This document shows positions 42,003-53,087 of a stretch of 64,000 nucleotides of DNA, one piece after another. Source of the DNA: Pseudoxanthomonas sp. YR558 (GTDB taxonomy: Bacteria; Pseudomonadota; Gammaproteobacteria; Xanthomonadales; Xanthomonadaceae); NCBI RefSeq assembly GCF_900116385.1, contig NZ_FPCI01000001.1:620001-684000 (forward strand), written 5' to 3'. Made by a program: the position numbers and the translations under genes. Numbering within the stretch: position 1 is the stretch's first letter; every line of letters starts with the position of its first letter. A model generated the notes under the pieces. It was not told the DNA's origin and did no database searches. It saw only the letters and a list, made by a program, of their open reading frames with translations.

Positions 42003-42009
<7 letters not shown>
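41984..42009 (-). terminator. Terminator of the arginine/proline cluster, overlapping the proA stop codon
   Basis: Minus strand AAAGTGAC-GTGGCGG-GTCACTTT then T's. The TGA stop of proA is the centre of the 5' stem arm. It closes the cluster and insulates the polysaccharide operon downstream. Confidence 0.88.
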
Positions 42010-43292
<1,283 letters not shown>

Positions 43293-43311
43293 GCGGACTC
43301 CGGGAGAAGCG

Positions 43312-44460
43312 TCAGAGAAGGACCAGATCGTCGCGATGCACGACGTTCTCGCCGTAGGTGTAACCGAGTATGCCTTCGATGTCGCGCGAATGACGACGCG
43401 CGATGCGGCGGATATCCACGGCCGAATACTGGCTCACGCCGCGCGCGACGGCGCGGTCTCCTTCGCCGTCGCGCAACACTACCTCGACCATGTCGCCGCG
43501 CCGGAAATCGCCTTCGGCCGTGGTCACCCCGCCCGGCAACAGCGACGCGCCCTTGCCCGTCATCGCACCGGCCGCCCCGGTGTCAACGACGATCGCACCG
43601 GCTTCGACCGGCACGTTGCGAAGCCAGTACTTGCGCGCCGCGAGGCGGTTCTGCGCCGGGCGGAACCGCGTGCCGAGCAGCGACCCGCGCGCGAGCGCCG
43701 AAACGGCAGTCGCCTGCGTACCGTTGAACAGGAACGTCTCGATGCCCGCGGCGGCGGCCTTCGCGGCCGCTTCGAGCTTGGTGTGCATGCCGCCGGTGCC
43801 GACGCCGCTGCCGGCACCCCCGGCCATCGCGAAGAACGCGGGTGTTAGCGCTTCGACGTCCAGGATCGGCTGGGCATCGGCGTGCGTGCGCGGGTTGGCG
43901 GTGTAGAAGCCGTCGATGTCGGTGGCGATGAAGAGCGCATCGGCATCGATCAGCGCCGCCACGACGGCGGCCAGGTTGTCGTTGTCGCCGAGTTTCAGCT
44001 CGTCGACGGAGACGGTGTCGTTCTCGTTGATGATCGGCAGCGCACCCAGCGCCAGCAATTCCTGCAAGGTCGCCCGCGCATTGAGGTAGCGCCGGCGATT
44101 GCGCAGGTCGTCGTGGGTCAGCAGTACCTGCGCTACCGGCCGGTCGAAGAAGCGCTGCCACAGCGCGATCAACTGCGCCTGACCGAGCGCGGCCAGCGCC
44201 TGCCGCTCGGCCATCGCAACGCCGGCCTGCGGTTTGCGATGCAACAGGCCGCGCCCGGCGGCCACCGCACCCGACGACACGATAACCACTTCCCTGCCCG
44301 CGGCGATGCTGGAGGACACGAATTGCGCCAGGGCCAGCGCATGGCGCGGGGTCAAGCCCTCGTCGCCGCCGGCCAACAGACTGCTGCCGACCTTCAGCAC
44401 GGCGCGACGCCATGTCGGCAATGCTTGTTCTTCGAACGGTGGCGGCACGGCGTGGGTCAT
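43312..44460 (-). CDS. proB: Glutamate 5-kinase
   Basis: 382 residues: an amino-acid kinase domain ([55 protein letters not shown]) and a C-terminal PUA domain (about 290-375). Proline feedback acts on the kinase domain in the family. It lies 9 bp after the YciI gene, inside the arginine cluster, so glutamate use for arginine and proline is co-organised. Confidence 0.96.
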
Positions 44461-44469
44461 CGTCTCAGC

Positions 44470-44727
44470 TCAGCGTGTGTTCCATTCGTAGACGGTGAGG
44501 TCGGACGTGCCGAGCGTCGCCAGCGGATCGCGTGCCGCGATCGCACGGGCCTGCTCAAGCGAATCGAGGTTGACCAGCACGTAGGCACCACCGGTCTTGT
44601 CGCTGAAGCCCCCGGTCATCTCGAGATGGCCGCTGTCGCGCAGCTCGTCCAGGAAGGCGAGGTGCGGTGCGATCGCGCCCTCGTCGAATGCAGGTCGCCG
44701 CATGGCCATGACGAGATAGCGCTTCAC
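44470..44727 (-). CDS. YciI-family small protein
   Basis: 85 residues, dimeric alpha/beta ferredoxin-like YciI fold ([54 protein letters not shown]). The GTG start overlaps the argH stop (GTGA). The function is unknown. YciI relatives include dehydrochlorinases and putative catalytic subunits. Its place between argH and proB is probably only for coordinated expression. Confidence 0.82.
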
Positions 44728-46016
44728 AGGGCGTCCCAGCGCGCCATCAGCGTGTCCAGACGGAGATCCGCGCCGGCACCCGGCGATACGCGCGCAGCCA
44801 AGCTGCCCTCGGGCGAGCGCCCCTGCCCGGCCGTATCCGCGGACGCAGCCGCCGCTTTGTACGCTTCGCGGAACGGCACACCGGCGACGGCCGCTTCCAC
44901 GGCGACGTCGGTGGCGTACATGCCGGAATCGATCGCGGCACGCAGGCGGTCTTCGCGCCACTCCAGGTTCGCGAGCAATGCCGGCAACAGTTCGAGCGCC
45001 GGCAGGCCACGACCGAAGCCATGGAAGATCGCACCCTTGCTGGCCTGCAGATCGCGGTGGTACCCCGACGGCAACGACAGCAACTGCTCGATCTCCGTGC
45101 GCGCCGCCGCCACGCTGGCGTGGGTGGCGCGCATCAGTTCGATGACGTCGGGATTGCGCTTGTTCGGCATGATCGAACTGCCCGTCGTGTACTGCGAAGG
45201 CAACGCGACGAAACCGAACTCCGCGCTCGTGAACAGCGATAGGTCCCAGGCGATGCGGCGCAGGTCGAGGGTGGCACCACCGAGCGCTTCCAGCGCGGCC
45301 AGTTCGAACTTTCCGCGCGAGAGCTGCGCGTAGATCGGGCTCACCTGCATGCGCGCGAAGCCGAGCGCCGCGGTCGTGTGCTCGCGGTCGAGCTTCAGGT
45401 TGACGCCATAGCCGGCCGCGGTGCCGAGCGGATTGGCGTCCACCAGCTTCAGCGTGTCGCGGGCGCGCATCGTGTTGTCGATGAACGCCTCGGCCCACCC
45501 CGCCCACCACATGCCGGCGGACGACACCACGGCGCGCTGGATATGGGTATAGCCCGGGATCGGCAAGTCGCGTTCGGCCCGCGCGCGATCCAGCGCCACC
45601 TTGGCCACTTCGCGCGACAGCACCGCCACGCGCGCCAGCTTCTCCTTCAGCCACAGGCGCGTGGCGACCAGGATCTGGTCGTTCCGGCTGCGGCCGGTAT
45701 GGATCTTGCGACCCGCATCGCCCAACCGCTCGGTCAGCCTGGCCTCGATGGCGGAGTGGCCGTCTTCGTAGCGTTCATCCAGGACGAAGTCGCCGCGACG
45801 GAAATCATCCGCCAGCAACGCCAGCTCGCGCTTGAGGCCCGCCAACTCGTCGCCGGACAGGATGCCGATGCGCTGCAGGCCTTCGGCATGCGCCGTGCTG
45901 GCCTGGATGTCGTGCAGGAAGAATTCGCGGTCCAGCACCACGTCGTCGCCGGCCAGGAAACGCTGGATCTCCGCATCCACCGCCACGCCGGGCTTCTGCC
46001 ACAACAGGTCGCTCAT
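44724..46016 (-). CDS. argH: Argininosuccinate lyase
   Basis: 430 residues, fumarase/aspartase superfamily. [41 protein letters not shown] and the signature [15 protein letters not shown] with the mobile-loop Ser are all present. It releases arginine and fumarate. Overlaps argC (4 nt) and the YciI gene (4 nt). Confidence 0.96.
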
Positions 46017-46975
46017 GCCGTCGTCTCCTGCGGAATGCTGTCGAGTTCGCCGAATCCGAACGCGAGGTTGAGGTTCTGCATCGCCTGCGTCGCCGCGCCC
46101 TTCAGCAGATTGTCGAGCGTCGCGACCACGACCAGACGCTTGCCGCCGGGTGCGAGGGTGAAGCCGCCGATTTCGACATCATGCCGGCCGGCGATGCGAC
46201 TGACCCATGGCGCCTCGTCCAGCACCTGGATCAACGCTTCGCCCGCATAGCGATCGCGGTAGAGCTTACGGATGTCTTCGATCTTCGCCGGTTGCTGCAG
46301 CCACAGGTTGACCGTCATCGTGATGCCGCGGAAGTGCGGCGCGACGTGCGGCATGAACTCGATAGGCAGGCCCAGGTGGCGGCTGACTTCGCGCTCATGC
46401 ATGTGGTCGGTCAGCGCGTACGGCATCAGGTTGTCGCGCAGCAGGTCGGTGTTGTTCTTGTCCGACGGCGAGGTTCCGGCGCCGGAATAGCCGGACACGC
46501 CGAAGCATTGCGGCGGACCCGCCAGGCGACCGAGCAACGGCGCAATCGCCAGTTGCATGGCGGTGGCATAACAACCGGGATTGCTGATGCGCTTCTCGCC
46601 GGCGTACCGCTGCCGGGTCAGTTCGGGCAGGCCGTAGTACCAATGCTCGTCGAAGCGGAAATCCGCCGACAAGTCGATCACCACGGTGTCCGGCGCCTGC
46701 GCGTCGATGGCGGCGACCAGTTCGGCTGCCTTGCCGTTCGGCAGCGCCAGGATCACGGCATCCGCGCCCTTGCCGCCGACCTGCTCGTGGCTCAGGTTCT
46801 CGTAGCGCAGCTCGCCTGCGAACTCGGGAATGTGATCGCTGACCTTCTGCCCATCCAGCTCGCGTGAGGACACGAACACCAGCTCGAGGTACGGATGGCG
46901 GGCAATCAGGCGGATCAGCTCCGCGCCGGTGTGGCCGCGGGCGCCGACGATGCCGACGGTCTTGGTCGTGCTCAT
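46013..46975 (-). CDS. argC: N-acetyl-gamma-glutamyl-phosphate reductase
   Basis: 320 residues. NAD motif [13 protein letters not shown], the catalytic Cys in [26 protein letters not shown] and the His region PHVAPHFRG. It reduces the product of the kinase half of ArgB/A. The ATG at 46975 overlaps the GNAT gene stop. A 20-codon upstream extension is rejected. Confidence 0.95.
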
Positions 46976-47592
46976 GGGGAATCCTGTTCGTGCCGGGCGA
47001 GCTTCGCCAGCAGGTTGCGCTTCACCGCCGGCCATTCGCCATCGATGATCGAGAAGACGACGGTGTCGCGTGGCGATCCGTCGGCATGCCGCTTGTGGTT
47101 GCGTAGCACCCCGTCCTGCTTTGCGCCGAGCCGGGCGATCGCCGCACGCGAGCGATGGTTGAACCAGCTGGTCTCGAAGACCACGCTGATGCAGCCCAGT
47201 GTCTCGAAGGCATGCGTGAGCAGCAGCAGCTTGGTTTCGGTGTTGACGCCCGTGCGCTGCACGTCAGGCGCATACCAGGTGTAGCCGATGCTGAGTTTGG
47301 GCACGTCGGCTTCCAGTCCGTAGAACCGGGTGCTGCCCACGATGCGGCCGCCCGCATCCCGCACCACGAACGGCAGCACGCGGCCGTCGGCCTGCGCCGC
47401 GAGCACCGCATCCACATAGCCCGCCGCATCCGCGGCTTTCGGCACCTGCGTGAACCACAAGGCCGCCAGTTCGTCGCCGGCCAGCGCCGCGCGCAGGCCG
47501 TCCACATGGTCGCGCGACATCGGCTCGAGGCGCGCATGGCGGCCCGCCAGGACCGGTACCTTCTGCCATGCCGTTGGGATCGAAGCGCTCAT
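46972..47592 (-). CDS. RimJ/RimL-type GNAT acetyltransferase
   Basis: 206 residues, GNAT fold: [52 protein letters not shown] (acetyl-CoA region) and [20 protein letters not shown]. The family acetylates N-termini or small amines. It sits between argB/A and argC with one-base spacing on one side and a 4-nt overlap on the other. It could act on an arginine-pathway compound, but no substrate can be assigned. Confidence 0.85.
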
Positions 47593-47593
47593 C

Positions 47594-48913
47594 TCAGTCC
47601 TTCAAGGTCGGCAGACGCGTACGGCAATGCGCCACGCAGCGCTCGATGTCGGCGAAGCCGTCGATGCCGTACCAGAACACCTTCCACTTCTCCTGCTTGT
47701 AGCAACCGTCGGACTCGGCGTAGTAGAAGATGTTGACCTGATTGTTGTGGCGGGAGCGCCAGAACAGCTGCGGATTCTCCTCGCGCATCACGTGCCACAC
47801 GGCACGGCCCAAGCCTTCGCCCTGCGCATCGTCGAGCACGGCGAACTTGTCGAGATAGGCAAAGCCTTCCTCGCGGGTGAGGATCAGCGCGGTACGGTAG
47901 TTCTCGCTGATGTAGACGCGGTACGGCGTGGTGCGCTCGAAGTAGTCGGGCAGCAGCGTGCGGCCGAAACTGGATTCGATCAGCGTCTTCAACCGCGGCA
48001 GATTCACGCCTTCCCAGCCGCCCTCGAAACGCAGCACGCGCTCGCCCTTGCGCACCAGTGTGCCGGAGCCGCGATGGGTGAAGAGTTCCTTGGCCAGCTC
48101 CGCCGGCTTGGTGATGGAGACCGACGAAGTCAGCGGCAGCCGGTCCAGCAGATCCTTGATCTGCTCGATCTTCACCCGCATCCCCCCGTTGATCCAGGGC
48201 TGCGCCATCAGCTCGTCGTACTCGGTCGACAAGTTGATCGAATCGATCACGCGGCCTTCTGCATCCAGCAAGCCGCCAGTACCGGTCAGGAAGATGATCT
48301 TGTACGGCTGCAGCACCTGCACCAACTCGTTGGCAGCGAAGTCGGCGTTGATGTTGAGTATCTGTCCACCGACGGTTTCGCCCATGCTGGCGATGACCGG
48401 GATGGAGCCGGCCTTCAGGCTCGCCTCGATCGGCGCCTGATTGATGCGGGTGACGTCGCCGACCAGGCCGTACGTGGCCTGGTCCTTGTACTCGGCTTCG
48501 AATACACCCGACACGATGGACGTCGCGCGCGCACCGACCTGCTGCAAGGCCTCGACCAGCGCGAGGTTCTGCTGCAGGAACACCTTGCGCACGATCGCCA
48601 GCACTTCGGGCGTGGTGACGCGCAGGCCGTTGACGGTCTGCTTGGTGATGCCGGCCGCCGTCATTTCCTCATCCAGCTGCGGCCCCGCGCCGTGCACGAC
48701 GATGGGCGTCAGGCCGACTTCCTGCAGGAAGGTCAGCGAGGACGTCAGCGACTCCAGGTCGTCGCGCAACACGGCGCCGCCCACCTTCACGACGGCGAAA
48801 CGCTTGGCGTCCAACTGCGAGAAGCGCTTGACGTACTGCGAAATCTCCTTCGCGCTGGCCATGCTGGACAGCAGGCGGATGATGGTCTGGCGGGTTTGCT
48901 TGTTCGATTCCAT
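47594..48913 (-). CDS. argB: Bifunctional N-acetylglutamate kinase / synthase
   Basis: 439 residues. The N-terminal amino-acid kinase domain (about 1-290) has [36 protein letters not shown] and [10 protein letters not shown]. The C-terminal GNAT domain (about 295-439) has FDK-type elements [17 protein letters not shown]. This is the Xanthomonas-type NAGS/K fusion, related to vertebrate NAGS, which performs the first two steps of arginine synthesis and is arginine-inhibited in studied members. The start is the ATG at 48913. Confidence 0.93.
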
Positions 48914-48927
48914 GTCTTCTTGCTTTT

Positions 48928-48992
48928 CGTAGGGTGGGCCCTGGCCCACCACATCATCGGTTCCGCATGGCGGGCCGGGGCCCGCCCTACGA
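48928..48992. repeat. REP-like GTAG repeat pair (GTAGGGTGGGCC family)
   Basis: Two facing copies, GTAGGGTGGGCC-CT-GGCCCACC and GGCGGGCC-GG-GGCCCGCC followed by CTAC, occupy most of the gap between argB/A and argE'. Each can form a hairpin and the pair can form a larger one. They match the GTAG-starting REP elements known from Stenotrophomonas and Xanthomonas. Another copy pair lies at 51751-51828. Confidence 0.85.
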
Positions 48993-48994
48993 CG

Positions 48995-50083
48995 CTACTG
49001 GAGGATCCTCGCCACGCTGTCGGCGTATTGCTGCAACTGCTCCAGCGATACCCACTCGTCGGCGGTATGGGCTTGGGCGATGTCGCCCGGGCCGTAGACG
49101 AAGGCGGTCAGGCCGGCGGCGGAAAATAGCGACGCCTCCGTCCAGAAGTCCACGGCATTGCCGATCGGCAAGCCGAGTTCGTCGGCGAGGTCGCGTGCGG
49201 CCAGGCGGCGCTCCTCCGCGCGCGCGACATCGCCGGACGGCAGCGACGGGCCACGGAAGGTTTCTTCGTAGTCGGCCAAGGCATCGGGATTGGCGAAACT
49301 ACGGAACGTCGCGTGCAGGTCGGCGGGGTCCTGCGAAGGCAGCGGACGGAAGCCGAAGCGCACCTCGGCGCTGGGCGCAATCATGTTGGCCTTGATGCCA
49401 CCCTCCACCCGACCGATGTTGAAGCGCAAGCCGGTCAGCCCGCCGAAGCGCAGATGATGCTGGGCCTGCACGAAATCCAGCGCCGACGTGCCCCAGCGCA
49501 TCGCGTTGTGCAGGGCGCTCAACGACAGCGCGTTCTCGGCGGAGGCGTGCCCGGCCTGCCCCGTGAACGCCATCCGGACGGCACTGATGCCGCGGTGTGC
49601 AAGCACCGCCTGGCACTGCGTCGGCTCGGCGATGATCGCTTCGCCGAAGCCATGATCGCGGGCGAGGAACGCGGCGATGCAGCGTGCGTCGTTCGCCTCT
49701 TCGTCCGTCGTGAACAGGAACGCCGCATCGCCCTGTGTCACCTGTGCGGCGGCCACGAGTGCCGCCGCCGCACCCTTGATGTCGCAGGCCCCCAGGCCGA
49801 TCGCGCGATCGCCTTCGACGCGCAGCACGTGCGGGTCGGCGCTCCACGCCGGCGAGGACGGCACCGTGTCCAGGTGCACGTTGAACACGCGCTTGGGCTG
49901 CCCGCGCACCGCGAACAGCGTGACCGCGCCGGCGCCATGGTCGATGACCTCGACCTGGAAATCCGGCAACTGCGCGCGCAGGTAGTCGAAGATGCCGCCG
50001 GTACTGATGTCGCGGGGCGGGTTGCGGGTGTCGAACGACACCAGCGCTTCGAGGTGCTTGAGCGTGGCTTCGAGCAGCGTCAT
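48995..50083 (-). CDS. N-acetyl-L-citrulline deacetylase (ArgE-like)
   Basis: 362 residues, M20 peptidase family: metal ligands in NVHLDTVP and GLGACDIKG, the catalytic Glu in FTTDEEAND and a dimerisation domain (about 170-285). In this cluster the substrate is probably acetylcitrulline rather than acetylornithine, because the upstream transcarbamylase uses acetylornithine. Overlaps the downstream GNAT gene start region by 4 nt at its own start. Confidence 0.9.
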   Translation of the reverse strand: MTLLEATLKHLEALVSFDTRNPPRDISTGGIFDYLRAQLPDFQVEVIDHGAGAVTLFAVRGQPKRVFNVHLDTVPSSPAWSADPHVLRVEGDRAIGLGACDIKGAAAALVAAAQVTQGDAAFLFTTDEEANDARCIAAFLARDHGFGEAIIAEPTQCQAVLAHRGISAVRMAFTGQAGHASAENALSLSALHNAMRWGTSALDFVQAQHHLRFGGLTGLRFNIGRVEGGIKANMIAPSAEVRFGFRPLPSQDPADLHATFRSFANPDALADYEETFRGPSLPSGDVARAEERRLAARDLADELGLPIGNAVDFWTEASLFSAAGLTAFVYGPGDIAQAHTADEWVSLEQLQQYADSVARILQ

Positions 50084-50520
50084 GCGGTTTTCGTCTCGGT
50101 ATAGGGGTTGGAACGCAGCACTTCCATCAGCGTCTGCGGGTTGGTCGGCGTAGCGAAGCCGTACTGCGCGTACAACCCATGCGCATCGGACGTCGCCAGC
50201 ATGAACCGGCGCAGCCCCTGCAATTGCGGATGCATCATGACCGCGGCGACCAGCTGCTTGCTGTAGCCGTGGCCGCGATAGTCTGGCAGCACGAACACGT
50301 CGGCCAGGTAGGCGAACGTCGCGAAGTCGGATACGACCCGCGCGAACGCCACCTGCCCCACGCCAGCGACATGGCCGCCGAAGCACAGCGAACCCTCGAC
50401 TGCACGCGCCACCGTGTCCTCCGGAATGCCCAGGCTCCAATACGCCTGGGTCGAAAGGAAACGATGGATCAACGGGAGATCCAGTTCCGCCTTGTCCGTG
50501 CTGATGCGCATGCCGCTCAT
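50080..50520 (-). CDS. GNAT acetyltransferase
   Basis: 146 residues, compact GNAT: HRFLSTQAYWSLGIPEDTVAR, FARVVSDFATFAYLADVFV, the acetyl-CoA loop PDYRGHGYSKQLV and HGLYAQYGFATP. The family is the 'YdfB/PA2578-like' small GNAT group of unknown substrate. It lies 14 bp after argG and overlaps argE'. Two start codons are possible (50520 or three codons later). Confidence 0.83.
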   Translation of the reverse strand: MSGMRISTDKAELDLPLIHRFLSTQAYWSLGIPEDTVARAVEGSLCFGGHVAGVGQVAFARVVSDFATFAYLADVFVLPDYRGHGYSKQLVAAVMMHPQLQGLRRFMLATSDAHGLYAQYGFATPTNPQTLMEVLRSNPYTETKTA

Positions 50521-50534
50521 CCAGGGGTTTCCGC

Positions 50535-51740
50535 TCAGCGATTGATCTCGGCCCACAGGGTCGAGCTCATGCCGAACAGCTTGATGAAGCCCTCGGCTTC
50601 CTCGACGCCCCAGTCCGCCGACTGCGCGTACGTCGCGCCCTTGGCGTTGAGGATGTGCGGTGACTTCACCGCGACAGCATCGACGCGGCCGCCGCGGGTC
50701 TCCAGCACCACGTCGCCATTGACCGTGGCCTGCGAAGACTGCAGGAACGCCTCCAGATCGGCCTTGAGCGGATCGTGGTAGAAGCCTTCGTACACCAGCT
50801 CCACCCACTTGCGCGCGATCTCGGGCTTGAAACGGTTCTGCTGCTTGGTCAGCACGGCCTCTTCCAGCGCGCGGTGCGCCGCCAGCAGCGACACCAGGCC
50901 CGGCGCTTCGAACACGATGCGGCCCTTCAGGCCGATCACGGTGTCGCCGGTGTAGACGCCGCGGCCCACACCGTAAGGCGCGAACAACGCATTCAACTTC
51001 GCCAGCAGCGCAGCGCCGGCGACCGGCTGGCCGTCCAGGCTGACCGCTTCGCCGTTCTTGAAGCCGACCGTGACGCGCAACGGTTCCACCGGCCATTCGG
51101 CGCGCGGTGCGCACCAGCCACGCGCGCCTTCGCCGGGGGCGGACCAGGTGTCGATCTCACCACCGGACATGGTCAGGCCGAGCAGGTTCTCGTTGATGGT
51201 GTAGCTCTTCTGCTTGGCACGCACGCCGAAGCCGCGCTCTTCGAGATACGCCTGTTCGTAGGCGCGGGTCTGGGTGTGCTCCTTCTGGATCTCGCGGATC
51301 GGCGCGACGATGCGGTAGTCGCCGCTGGCCTTGACCGCGAGGTCGAAGCGCACCTGGTCGTTACCCATGCCGGTGCAGCCGTGCGCAATCGCGTTCGTGC
51401 CCAGCTCGGCCGCCCGCTTCAGCGCGGCGTCGACGATCAGGTAGCGGTCGGACACAAGCAACGGGTACTGGCCCTGGTAGCCCTCGCCGGCCCACACGAA
51501 CGGCCGGACGAAGCCGTCCCAGATCGCCGGGCCGCCATCGACGGTGACGTGGCTGGCCACGCCCAGGTCGGCGGCGCGCTGTTCGATGTAGGCGCGTTCT
51601 TCGGCATCCACGCCGCCGGTGTCGGCGAACACGGTGTGGACGTTCCAGCCGCGCTCCTTCAGGTAGGGCACGCAGAAGCTGGTGTCGAGGCCGCCGGAGA
51701 AGGCGAGGACGATGTCTTTGGATTCGTGGGGGGTGGTCAT
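50535..51740 (-). CDS. argG: Argininosuccinate synthase
   Basis: 401 residues. ATP loop [16 protein letters not shown], the [13 protein letters not shown] citrulline/aspartate region and YSTGxx-like [13 protein letters not shown]. It joins citrulline and aspartate. It resembles the ArgG subtype of Xanthomonas/Bacteroides rather than the E. coli long form. Located after argF' across an 84-bp gap filled by a REP pair. Confidence 0.95.
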
Positions 51741-51750
51741 CTTGAGTCTC

Positions 51751-51828
51751 GTAGGGCGGGCCTTGGTCCGCCGGATCTGGTTTGTGGTGTCTTGCCGGTC
51801 AGGAGCGGCGGGCCAAGGCCCGCCCTAC
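51751..51828. repeat. REP-like GTAG repeat pair; supplies the stop codon of argF'
   Basis: GTAGGGCGGGCC-TT-GGTCCGCC and GGCGGGCC-AA-GGCCCGCC then CTAC, facing each other about 35 bp apart. On the minus strand the right copy begins GTAGGGCGGG, and its TAG is the stop codon of the acetylornithine carbamoyltransferase gene. Confidence 0.85.
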
Positions 51829-52826
51829 TTGATCAGCGCGGCCATGATGGCCTTCTGCACGTGCAGGCGGTTCTCGGCTTCGTCGATGGCGATGCACTGC
51901 GGCGAATCCATCACGCCGTCGGTGGCCTTCACGTTGCGGCGCAGCGGCAGGCAGTGGCTGAAGACGCCGTTGTTGGTCAGCGCCATCTTCCGCTCGTCGA
52001 CGATGAAGTGCTTGTACTGGTCGCGGATGGGTTTCTCGGGCTCCCAGTTGCCGAAGAACGGCAGCGCGCCCCAGCTCTTGGCGTACACCACGTCGGCGCC
52101 GGCATAGGCGCTGTTGATGTCGTGGCTGACCTGTAGCGAACCGCCGCTTTCGGCCACGTTCTGCTCGGCCCAGCCCATGTAGCGTTCATCGAGCACGTAG
52201 TCGGGCGTGGGGCACAGCAGGGTCACGTCCATGCCCATGCGGGTGGCGATGGTCAGCGCCGAGTTGGCGACCGCGGTGTTGAGCGGCTTGGGGTGGTACG
52301 TCCAGGTGAGCACGTACTTCTTGCCACGCAGGTCGGACGTGCCGAAGTGCTCCTGCAGCGCCAGCGCATGCGCGAGTTCCTGGCAGGGATGGGTGATCGT
52401 CTCCATGTTGATCACCGGCACCGGCGAATACTTCGCGAACGACTTCAGGACGATGTCCTCGCGGTCGTAGGCCCAGTCGACGAATTTCGGGAAGGCACGC
52501 ACGCCGATCAGATCCACGTAGCGGCCCAGCACCTTCGCCACCTCGGCGATGTGCTCCTCGGTGTCGCCGTCCATCACCGTGCCCAGGTTGAACTCGATCG
52601 GCCACGCGTCCTTGCCCGGCTGCAGCACCACGGCGTGGCCACCCAGCTGGAAAGCACCCAGTTCGAAGCTGGTGCGGGTACGCATGGACGGGTTGAAGAA
52701 CACCAACGCGATCGATTTGCCCTTGAGCGCATCGCCCAGCTTGTGCTGCTTGTAGAGGGCAGCCTGCGTCAGCAGGGCGTCCAGCTCGGTGCGGCTCCAG
52801 TCCTGCGTGTTCAAGAAGTGCTTCAT
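51825..52826 (-). CDS. argF': N-acetylornithine carbamoyltransferase
   Basis: 333 residues. The carbamoyl-phosphate site is SMRTRTSFELGAFQLGGH. GKDAWPIEF and GDTEEHIAEVA contain the Glu that, in X. campestris AOTCase, sets preference for acetylornithine over succinylornithine. HPCQELAHALAL and the HCLPLRRN segment are the amino-acid site, and the Lys of RRNVKATD matches the Lys reported to be carboxylated in that enzyme. It is a few residues shorter than the X. campestris protein at the C-terminus, where a REP element provides the stop. First gene of the arginine/proline cluster. Confidence 0.94.
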   Translation of the reverse strand: MKHFLNTQDWSRTELDALLTQAALYKQHKLGDALKGKSIALVFFNPSMRTRTSFELGAFQLGGHAVVLQPGKDAWPIEFNLGTVMDGDTEEHIAEVAKVLGRYVDLIGVRAFPKFVDWAYDREDIVLKSFAKYSPVPVINMETITHPCQELAHALALQEHFGTSDLRGKKYVLTWTYHPKPLNTAVANSALTIATRMGMDVTLLCPTPDYVLDERYMGWAEQNVAESGGSLQVSHDINSAYAGADVVYAKSWGALPFFGNWEPEKPIRDQYKHFIVDERKMALTNNGVFSHCLPLRRNVKATDGVMDSPQCIAIDEAENRLHVQKAIMAALIK

Positions 52827-52873
52827 TACGGCATCCTGGTTTCGGGAATGTGGCAAAACGGGCTTCAGAAACG

Positions 52874-52898
52874 AAAAAACCCAGCCTCTGGCTGGGTT
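52874..52898 (-). terminator. Leader terminator / attenuator before argF'
   Basis: Minus strand AACCCAGCC-AGA-GGCTGGGTT followed by TTTT, a strong intrinsic terminator located 48 nt upstream of the argF' start codon. It therefore lies inside the 5' leader of the cluster, not after a gene. Its 5' arm (ACCCAGC, 52897-52891) can instead pair with GCTGGGT at 52933-52927, which overlaps the stop codon of the upstream short ORF. Confidence 0.75.
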
Positions 52899-52932
52899 CC
52901 GGTGAACAAGCGACGACGTCCGGGGTACCCAG

Positions 52933-53025
52933 CTAGATGCAGGATTCCGGTCGACGGGCACGCGACGTCATGCTCGAGGCCTGGCGGGCCGCGCTGTCAG
53001 CATGGGCGTGTGCGTTCATCTTCAT
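52933..53025 (-). CDS. Candidate arginine leader peptide
   Basis: A 30-codon ORF starting MKMNAHAHADSAARQ and ending SRARRPESCI, then TAG. Four Arg codons occur; three fall in four codons (CGT GCC CGT CGA), 6-9 codons before the stop, and use CGT/CGA, which look uncommon next to CGC in neighbouring genes. It is followed by a terminator whose alternative pairing partner lies at its stop codon. Alternative starts are at 53019 and 53043. I see no strong ribosome site, which is the main weakness. Confidence 0.5.
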   Translation of the reverse strand: MKMNAHAHADSAARQASSMTSRARRPESCI

Positions 53026-53087
53026 GGGCGCGAATGCTCGCATGTGCTGCGGCGCAGCGCAAGGCTACCTTGGGCGCATGCCACGCG

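Follow-up and report, generated by a model that had tools for sequence, protein, structure and literature searches.

The argF' gene of Pseudoxanthomonas sp. YR558 and its leader were analyzed in a window of 64,000 nucleotides (nt; contig NZ_FPCI01000001.1, positions 620,001 to 684,000 of the forward strand). The window means this whole stretch, and positions below are counted within it. argF', whose product makes an arginine (Arg) precursor, is the first gene of its cluster. On the minus strand, positions 53062 to 52874 hold a promoter, an open reading frame (ORF) of 30 codons and an intrinsic terminator, in this order, followed by argF'. A first-pass annotation had read this arrangement as an arginine attenuator with the layout of trp, his and leu leaders, and every element it named was found: the ORF, its Arg-Ala-Arg-Arg run, the terminator and the pairing of ACCCAGC with GCTGGGT. 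The distance from terminator to argF' was corrected from 48 to 47 nt (the U-run ends at 52874 and the argF' ATG lies at 52826-52824).

The leader ORF starts at ATG 53025-53023 and stops at TAG 52935-52933. It encodes the peptide MKMNAHAHADSAARQASSMTSRARRPESCI, the terminal stretch being ...MTSRARRPESCI, and its Arg run CGT GCC CGT CGA occupies 52962-52951. The terminator hairpin proper covers 52900-52876. It is the sole terminator-like site between 52700 and 53700; shuffled sequences gave 0.6 on average, thus the hairpin alone is not significant. The fold of 52866-53035 on the minus strand was not unusual either (z -0.79; 43 of 200 shuffles were as good). Region 3, within the terminator, is complementary to region 2 at the stop codon, which in the window sequence alone could be chance. 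The sequence TTTTTTCGTTT (52879-52869), extending past the U-run, recurs in many relatives. The leader region belongs to Rfam family RF02242, "Xoo5", given the Rfam type 'Gene; sRNA' (sRNA, small RNA).

Features of the argF' leader and gene cluster in the window. RACE, rapid amplification of cDNA ends. Here and below, statements on published work (cited by PubMed Central number, PMC) hold for the parts of the sources covered.
Feature	Positions	Strand	Basis
-35 element TTGCGC of the leader promoter	53057..53062	-	promoter pattern in 88/88 family loci
-10 element GAGCAT, 17-nt spacer, 8 nt before the leader ATG	53034..53039	-	promoter pattern and position in the sequence
Predicted start of transcription, 2 nt before the leader ATG	53027	-	first position of the Rfam Xoo5 match; 5' RACE end of Xoo5 in X. 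oryzae
Rfam RF02242 Xoo5 match, 52.6 bits (gathering cut-off 50)	52903..53027	-	only Rfam match in the stretch
Leader ORF, 30 codons and TAG	52933..53025	-	reading frame in the sequence; purifying selection on the peptide
Invariant core ATG ACG TCG CGT GCC CGT CGA (MTSRARR); sensor codons CGT, CGT, CGA	52951..52971	-	119-locus comparison
Region 1, CCGGAATCC	52942..52950	-	consensus pairing with region 2 and flank (anti-antiterminator), RNAalifold, 26 sequences
Region 2, GCTGGGT, overlapping the stop codon TAG	52927..52933	-	position conserved relative to the core ATG
Region 3, ACCCAGC, antiterminator 3' strand and terminator 5' strand	52891..52897	-	pairing and covariation
Region 4, GCTGGGT	52879..52885	-	changes on both sides of 3:4; three-way covariation
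Intrinsic terminator hairpin and U-run	52874..52900	-	terminator scan; conserved across relatives
argF', N-acetylornithine carbamoyltransferase, first structural gene	51825..52826	-	NCBIfam NF003384, E 3.3e-193
Downstream genes: argG, GNAT, M20 peptidase-family protein, acetylglutamate kinase with N-acetyltransferase domain, GNAT, argC, argH, YCII-domain region, proB, proA	42003..51740	-	

Conservation of the leader peptide and its arginine codons

A first set of 81 argF' loci comprised the window and the best 80 of 583 genome-scan matches. The core ORF, the terminator and a region 2 complementary to the terminator 5' arm were present in all 81, with Ile replacing the core Met in one locus (L040). 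The Rfam Xoo5 model, under strict filters, matched 316 of 395 family genomes at an expectation value (E) up to 1e-3, 204 of them above its cut-off. Our own covariance model, built from 26 divergent sequences, matched 181 of 250 genomes of the order (E up to 1e-3). These represent 65 of 77 genera, and the weaker matches are uncertain. In some families weak matches (E above 1e-9) may be terminators only, and these were excluded from the case counts. Forty matches with E up to 4e-9, picked for diversity, were fetched. argF' lay within about 1 kb of the match in all of them; the core was found within the stretch examined in 38, and these 38 all had the terminator. Added to the first set, they form a 119-locus set, which leaves out L138 (core farther upstream) and L131 (a different Arg-rich leader). 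RARR is present throughout this set. When the core pattern was sought in 364 genomes of the class outside the order, two matches, uninspected, were returned versus one for the reversed control pattern.

Two database matches stand apart. In the window's own genome, the leader model gave a second, weak match (L113, G000:C1:2193553-2193686, E 2.2e-4), perhaps merely a similar terminator. Locus L045 (JAHREJ010000037.1) is titled Bacillus subtilis SK7B5; its argF' is 94% identical to that of the window and its leader is Stenotrophomonas-like, and it is probably contamination or a mislabelled record.

Changes in the leader codons of the 119 loci were counted by parsimony on the argF' tree. Across codons Ala -6, Ala -3 and Met 0 to Arg 6, there were 126 synonymous changes versus a single amino-acid change (Met to Ile), and none at T S R A R R of the core. 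Codons -12 to -9 and 8 to 12 underwent 21 to 42 amino-acid changes each, those at codons 8 to 12 being partly non-coding, as the stop falls at or before codon 12 in 22 of the 119 loci. Judging from these substitutions, the leader ORF is translated and its peptide is under purifying selection, since synonymous third-position changes dominate, a pattern that RNA structure by itself would not produce. The invariant peptide, AxxAxxMTSRARR, was seen in the window's family and in three others (f2, f3 and f12). Thus, where the first-pass annotation had anticipated no amino-acid conservation outside the Arg codons, the MTSRARR families display a strong one.

The choice of Arg codons in the core is also restricted. 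Among the 357 core Arg codons of the 119 loci, CGT occurs 123 times, CGA 117 and CGC 117, and CGG, AGA and AGG are never used. At the same loci, the first 140 codons of argF' (frames checked) contain 138 CGG or AGR and 13 CGA among 1069 Arg codons, and the non-conserved Arg at leader codon -5 is CGG in 36 of 101 cases; Fisher values for the codon comparison ignore the relatedness of the loci. The Arg run ends in CGA in 116 of the 119 loci. CGU, CGC and CGA are decoded by the Arg transfer RNA (tRNA) with anticodon ACG, through inosine. In this genome, 30 tRNA loci out of 48 matches were scanned, and they include tRNA-Arg with anticodons ACG, CCG, CCT and TCT. The core codon choice points to a single one, tRNA-Arg(ICG). 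In the Salmonella his attenuator, strong de-attenuation was caused by Arg-Arg pairs containing CGA (PMC4046918).

Leaders with other peptides were found farther away. argF' was sought in 34 genomes of other families, mostly with a weak or absent leader model, giving 24 loci of at least 60% identity. In 22 of these, a terminator was accompanied by a short ORF in which a run of 8 codons includes 3 to 6 for Arg. Their peptides are unrelated to that of the window (for example RRARRTRR, RRIRRR, LRRRRR and IRRLRRPR), and their Arg codons are CGC (42), CGA (31), CGT (14), CGG (3), AGA (1) and AGG (1). Region 2 reached at least 6 contiguous base pairs in 16 of the 22. What these families have in common with the window's is therefore the Arg cluster and the switch. 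Four leaders from one distant family (L204, L207, L213 and L215) share GF(R/S)(H/Y)LRR...PGWVA(V/M), a second lineage-specific conserved peptide, in which region 2 itself is coding (GWV).

Competing helices in the leader RNA

At the variable bases of regions 2, 3 and 4, 84 of the 119 loci carry T/A/T and 27 carry C/G/C, so that 111 triplets are canonical; 8 deviate, one of them (L136) being a clear 2:3 mismatch. On the tree of the 111 canonical loci, parsimony places 6 independent co-switches of the whole triplet, and the 3:4 helix shows changes on both sides. Across relatives, the complementarity between regions 2 and 3 is not chance.

The position of region 2 is conserved as well. It starts at +36 to +39 from the core ATG in 81/81 loci of the first set and at +34 to +42 in 37 of the 38 further loci (118/119 overall) when sought from +21 onwards; only +33 to +50 was used for the triplet and energy counts. 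The stop, relative to the same ATG, ranges from +24 to +48 while region 2 stays in place. Therefore, the conserved spacing is that between the Arg codons and region 2.

Pairing of the region-2 window with its own terminator arm had a mean energy of -14.2 kcal/mol, versus -5.1 kcal/mol for control windows from the same leaders. Swapping the arms had a one-sided effect: G-type region 2 went from -15.4 to -10.1 kcal/mol with A-type arms, and A-type region 2 only from -13.7 to -13.2 kcal/mol with G-type arms, because G-U pairs are allowed. From the 26 sequences, RNAalifold independently derived a consensus that contains the terminator and also a hairpin between regions 1 and 2. For the leader in the window, 1:2 as defined is a weak helix with 0.36 expected pairs, although part of region 2 pairs with the segment of Arg codons in the fold of lowest energy.

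Transcripts ending before region 4 were folded under a mask representing the ribosome, whose footprint size was assumed. A mask over the Arg codons left region 2 free, and 2:3 formed in 117 of 119 transcripts, whereas a mask at the stop allowed 2:3 in none of the 119, largely since the mask itself covers region 2.

The promoter and the Xoo5 RNA

A promoter adjoins the leader start codon. Its pattern in the family is TTG(C/A)NN, a spacer of 17 nt (84 loci) or 18 nt (4 loci), NANNNT, 6-10 nt and the in-frame start. This distance from the -10 element to the start codon was observed in 88/88 loci of the window's family (the 81 first examined and 7 fetched later), versus a shuffle mean of 0.46. On this geometry, the leader messenger RNA (mRNA) is leaderless or nearly so. 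The weak ribosome site, noted as a caveat in the first-pass annotation, is accounted for in the same way. A Shine-Dalgarno-like tetramer occurs 4-14 nt before the start in 30 of the 88 loci, and with GAGGAT-type -10 boxes it falls inside the -10 element itself. Under a slightly looser rule, similar geometry was found in 18 of the 22 distant-family loci (shuffle mean 0.15). Inspection by eye did not reveal the near-leaderless arrangement in family f12, whose leaders may use a ribosome-binding site.

An RNA from this place is already on file. In X. oryzae, sRNA-Xoo5 lies on the + strand between PXO_00354 and PXO_00353, with a 5' RACE end and a length of 124 nt (PMC3039613). PXO_00353 is named N-acetylornithine carbamoyltransferase in that report, which puts Xoo5 immediately before argF'. 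The Rfam model begins 2 nt before the leader AUG, and the equal length of 124 suggests that this position is the 5' RACE end. This end, for X. oryzae, and the conserved promoter contradict a transcription start downstream of the hairpin, which would have spoken against the attenuator. RF02242 and sRNA-Xoo5 are thus the same sequence family at the same place as the leader studied here; the difference is that Xoo5 was described as an sRNA of unknown function, with neither a leader ORF nor an arginine link stated in the parts of PMC3039613 covered. Table 4 of the same report lists ArgG (PXO_00352) and ArgF' (PXO_00353) as down-regulated in the X. oryzae sRNA-Xoo1 mutant, which is consistent with their co-regulation.

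Mechanism, alternatives and related systems

Altogether, we consider it very probable, from comparative sequence evidence, that the argF' leader works as a transcription attenuator of the trp/his type, in which a ribosome translating a near-leaderless mRNA senses arginine. The conservation of the ORF, of its Arg codons and of both pairings in relatives supports the first-pass proposal. RNA polymerase would start on the leader AUG or only a few nt from it, as the 5' end mapped by others in X. oryzae and the promoter geometry seen here both suggest, and a ribosome would load on the emerging RNA. With ample charged tRNA-Arg(ICG), this ribosome would clear CGT GCC CGT CGA, reach the stop and cover region 2; helix 3:4 would then form and transcription would end before argF'. 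When arginine is short, the ribosome would stall at the Arg codons, above all at the slow CGA, leaving region 2, about 18-21 nt further on, free to pair with region 3 while region 4 is still to be transcribed, and the polymerase would continue into argF'. We infer the stalling, as well as the direction and size of the response, from this architecture; the absence of CGG and AGR from the core indirectly supports a response through charged tRNA. Control would presumably extend to all genes downstream of argF', as far as proA.

Several observations weigh against this reading. In the 26-sequence alignment, 2:3 alone was without significant covariation (95.5% paired, a value reached by 127 of 500 shuffles, and a covariation score reached by 419 of 500); one row of this alignment is out of register and most pairs hardly vary, and the anchored triplet count was used instead. 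In folding without a ribosome, 2:3 formed in 82 of 119 pre-region-4 transcripts and 1:2 (4 pairs reached) in 81. Therefore, termination is not predicted as the default for an untranslated leader; such a default is not common to all attenuators. Moreover, 3:4 wins at equilibrium in all states, with at least 4 pairs in 115 of 119 loci even in the stalled state; thus antitermination must be kinetic. The Xoo5 model missed 79 of the 395 family genomes, and the Xoo5 report found no similar sequence in Xylella (PMC3039613). According to the same source, the 3' end lies at nt 124 and the bands run near 130 and 100 nt, versus 154-159 nt expected for the terminated RNA (154 nt here); processing and truncated clones are alternative explanations. 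Among the 22 distant leaders, 6 have fewer than 6 contiguous base pairs in region 2, and 7 have no more than 3 Arg in 8 codons. Against local shuffles, which preserve local base composition, the Arg count gave p above 0.1 in 10 leaders and 0.1 or less in 12. Two of the 24 distant argF' loci, L199 and L216, had neither an Arg leader nor a terminator. Finally, the peptide is conserved beyond the Arg codons, exceeding what a pure codon sensor needs.

This last point suggests a version in which the nascent chain AxxAxxMTSRARR helps the stall from within the exit tunnel. Besides tRNA charging, the switch would then respond to the peptide and perhaps to a ligand, free arginine or some other. TnaC, SpeFL and the fungal arginine attenuator peptide are analogues. 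Indeed, Ala -6, Ala -3, Thr 1, Ser 2 and Ala 4 are unchanged in the 119 loci despite 82 synonymous changes, and counting Arg codons needs none of them; with R6 in the A site, these residues would be no more than about a dozen positions away from the peptidyl-transferase centre. Conservation of the amino-acid sequence independently of codons, as expected of an arrest peptide, was found, though within four families only. However, distant families have Arg clusters without this peptide. The core-to-stop distance, varying from 24 to 48 nt, speaks against arrest at termination, and the exclusion of CGG and the preference for CGA show that codons matter. We regard this version as rather unlikely as it stands, while the invariant flanking residues possibly contribute to stalling through the nascent chain.

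Translation of the leader could also act by a route in which the hairpins are secondary, such as Rho, an RNase or occlusion of the argF' start. Arg-codon leaders of such kinds exist in Salmonella (speF orf34) and in S. aureus (rbfL), and the position of the published 3' end, ahead of the terminator, suggests processing. Against them, a terminator with U-run and a mutually exclusive helix are present in 81/81 loci. The argF' start lies at least 24 nt downstream of the terminator in the loci scored, and a ribosome paused in the leader therefore cannot cover it. These routes appear improbable.

We judge it very improbable that Xoo5 is a trans-acting sRNA whose position before argF' is incidental. 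The Rfam type, the 3' end mapped before the terminator and the two discrete RNA sizes (about 130 and 100 nt, the former seen only in early growth phases) would suit such an RNA (PMC3039613). However, hfq loss affected three sRNAs (Xoo1, 2 and 3) and left 'the other five' unchanged, their functions being left open in the part of the report covered; by elimination, the Xoo5 level was unchanged in the hfq mutant. Frame-specific selection, the covariation of antiterminator and terminator, and the presence of argF' next to 40/40 fetched model matches also stand against this idea. A dual role as attenuator and sRNA may exist, by analogy with rnTrpL of Sinorhizobium meliloti. Lastly, it is hardly credible that the hairpin does no more than terminate the exported-protein gene lying upstream, with an ORF that arose by chance: that gene is kept on the same strand in 80/80 named loci, so that synteny in the family alone could not exclude this, but a conserved promoter (88/88 loci) and an ORF under selection intervene, and region 2 would have no reason to track changes in the terminator.

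The preferred reading, an arginine attenuator, has clear relatives. The trp, his and leu leader-peptide attenuators belong to enteric bacteria. The argF' leader resembles them in its short translated ORF with clustered end-product codons and a stop near region 2, in its mutually exclusive 1:2, 2:3 and 3:4 helices, the antiterminator sharing the terminator 5' arm, and in its intrinsic terminator before a biosynthetic operon. It differs in its amino acid, arginine, in its near-leaderless start and in a peptide conserved well beyond the sensor codons in four families. In S. meliloti, rnTrpL/peTrpL (PMC10117765) is likewise an attenuator with a small leaderless mRNA starting at the leader AUG, and its RNA is also called an sRNA, but it senses tryptophan, and functions beyond attenuation are reported for both RNA and peptide. 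Salmonella speF orf34 (PMC6386406) encodes a conserved leader peptide with two Arg codons in a row, and low arginine raises speF expression; however, speF encodes ornithine decarboxylase and does not belong to an arginine-making operon, and Rho and RNase G act there in place of an intrinsic terminator. In S. aureus rbfL (PMC13009471), the Arg codons of a leader peptide also read the arginine supply, but through translational occlusion of a regulator gene, with the rare codons AGA/AGG and the opposite sign. The mycobacterial cysteine-rich upstream ORFs (PMC4633059) are conserved, rich in the amino acid of their pathway and proposed to encode attenuating peptides; the amino acid is cysteine, and a comparative study (PMC1262725) reports no obvious terminators there.

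The first-pass annotation held arginine attenuators of this kind to be unfamiliar. This stands for arginine-making operons, for which no such case was recognised in the open-access literature, judged mostly by title and start of abstract, subscription papers being outside the scope; the parts covered of PMC2965389, PMC7694677 and PMC4046766 contain nothing on an arginine leader. It does not stand for Arg-codon leaders in general, as speF orf34 and rbfL show. The ArgR C-terminal domain (PF02863) was not found in any of 60 family genomes, versus 8 of 14 control genomes positive, E. coli included, which speaks for the attenuator and against an ArgR-controlled operon; other arginine regulators were not sought.

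As a tentative extension, which we hold possible though doubtful, the leader would be a dual sensor, on a near-leaderless mRNA and in a group seemingly devoid of ArgR. It would read charging of tRNA-Arg(ICG) at the CGY/CGA codons together with the invariant nascent chain in the exit tunnel, the peptide being a later addition to an older, codon-only Arg attenuator that survives in sister families. Should the attenuator reading be true, arginine would join the amino acids served by classical intrinsic-terminator attenuators, and Xoo5, an Rfam sRNA of unknown function, would become a cis-regulatory element. The leader would also offer an answer as to how arginine synthesis is controlled without an ArgR repressor in these bacteria. 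Finally, since sister families carry the switch with and without the invariant peptide, they would provide a natural test of whether the sequence of a leader peptide, beyond its codons, tunes ribosome stalling.

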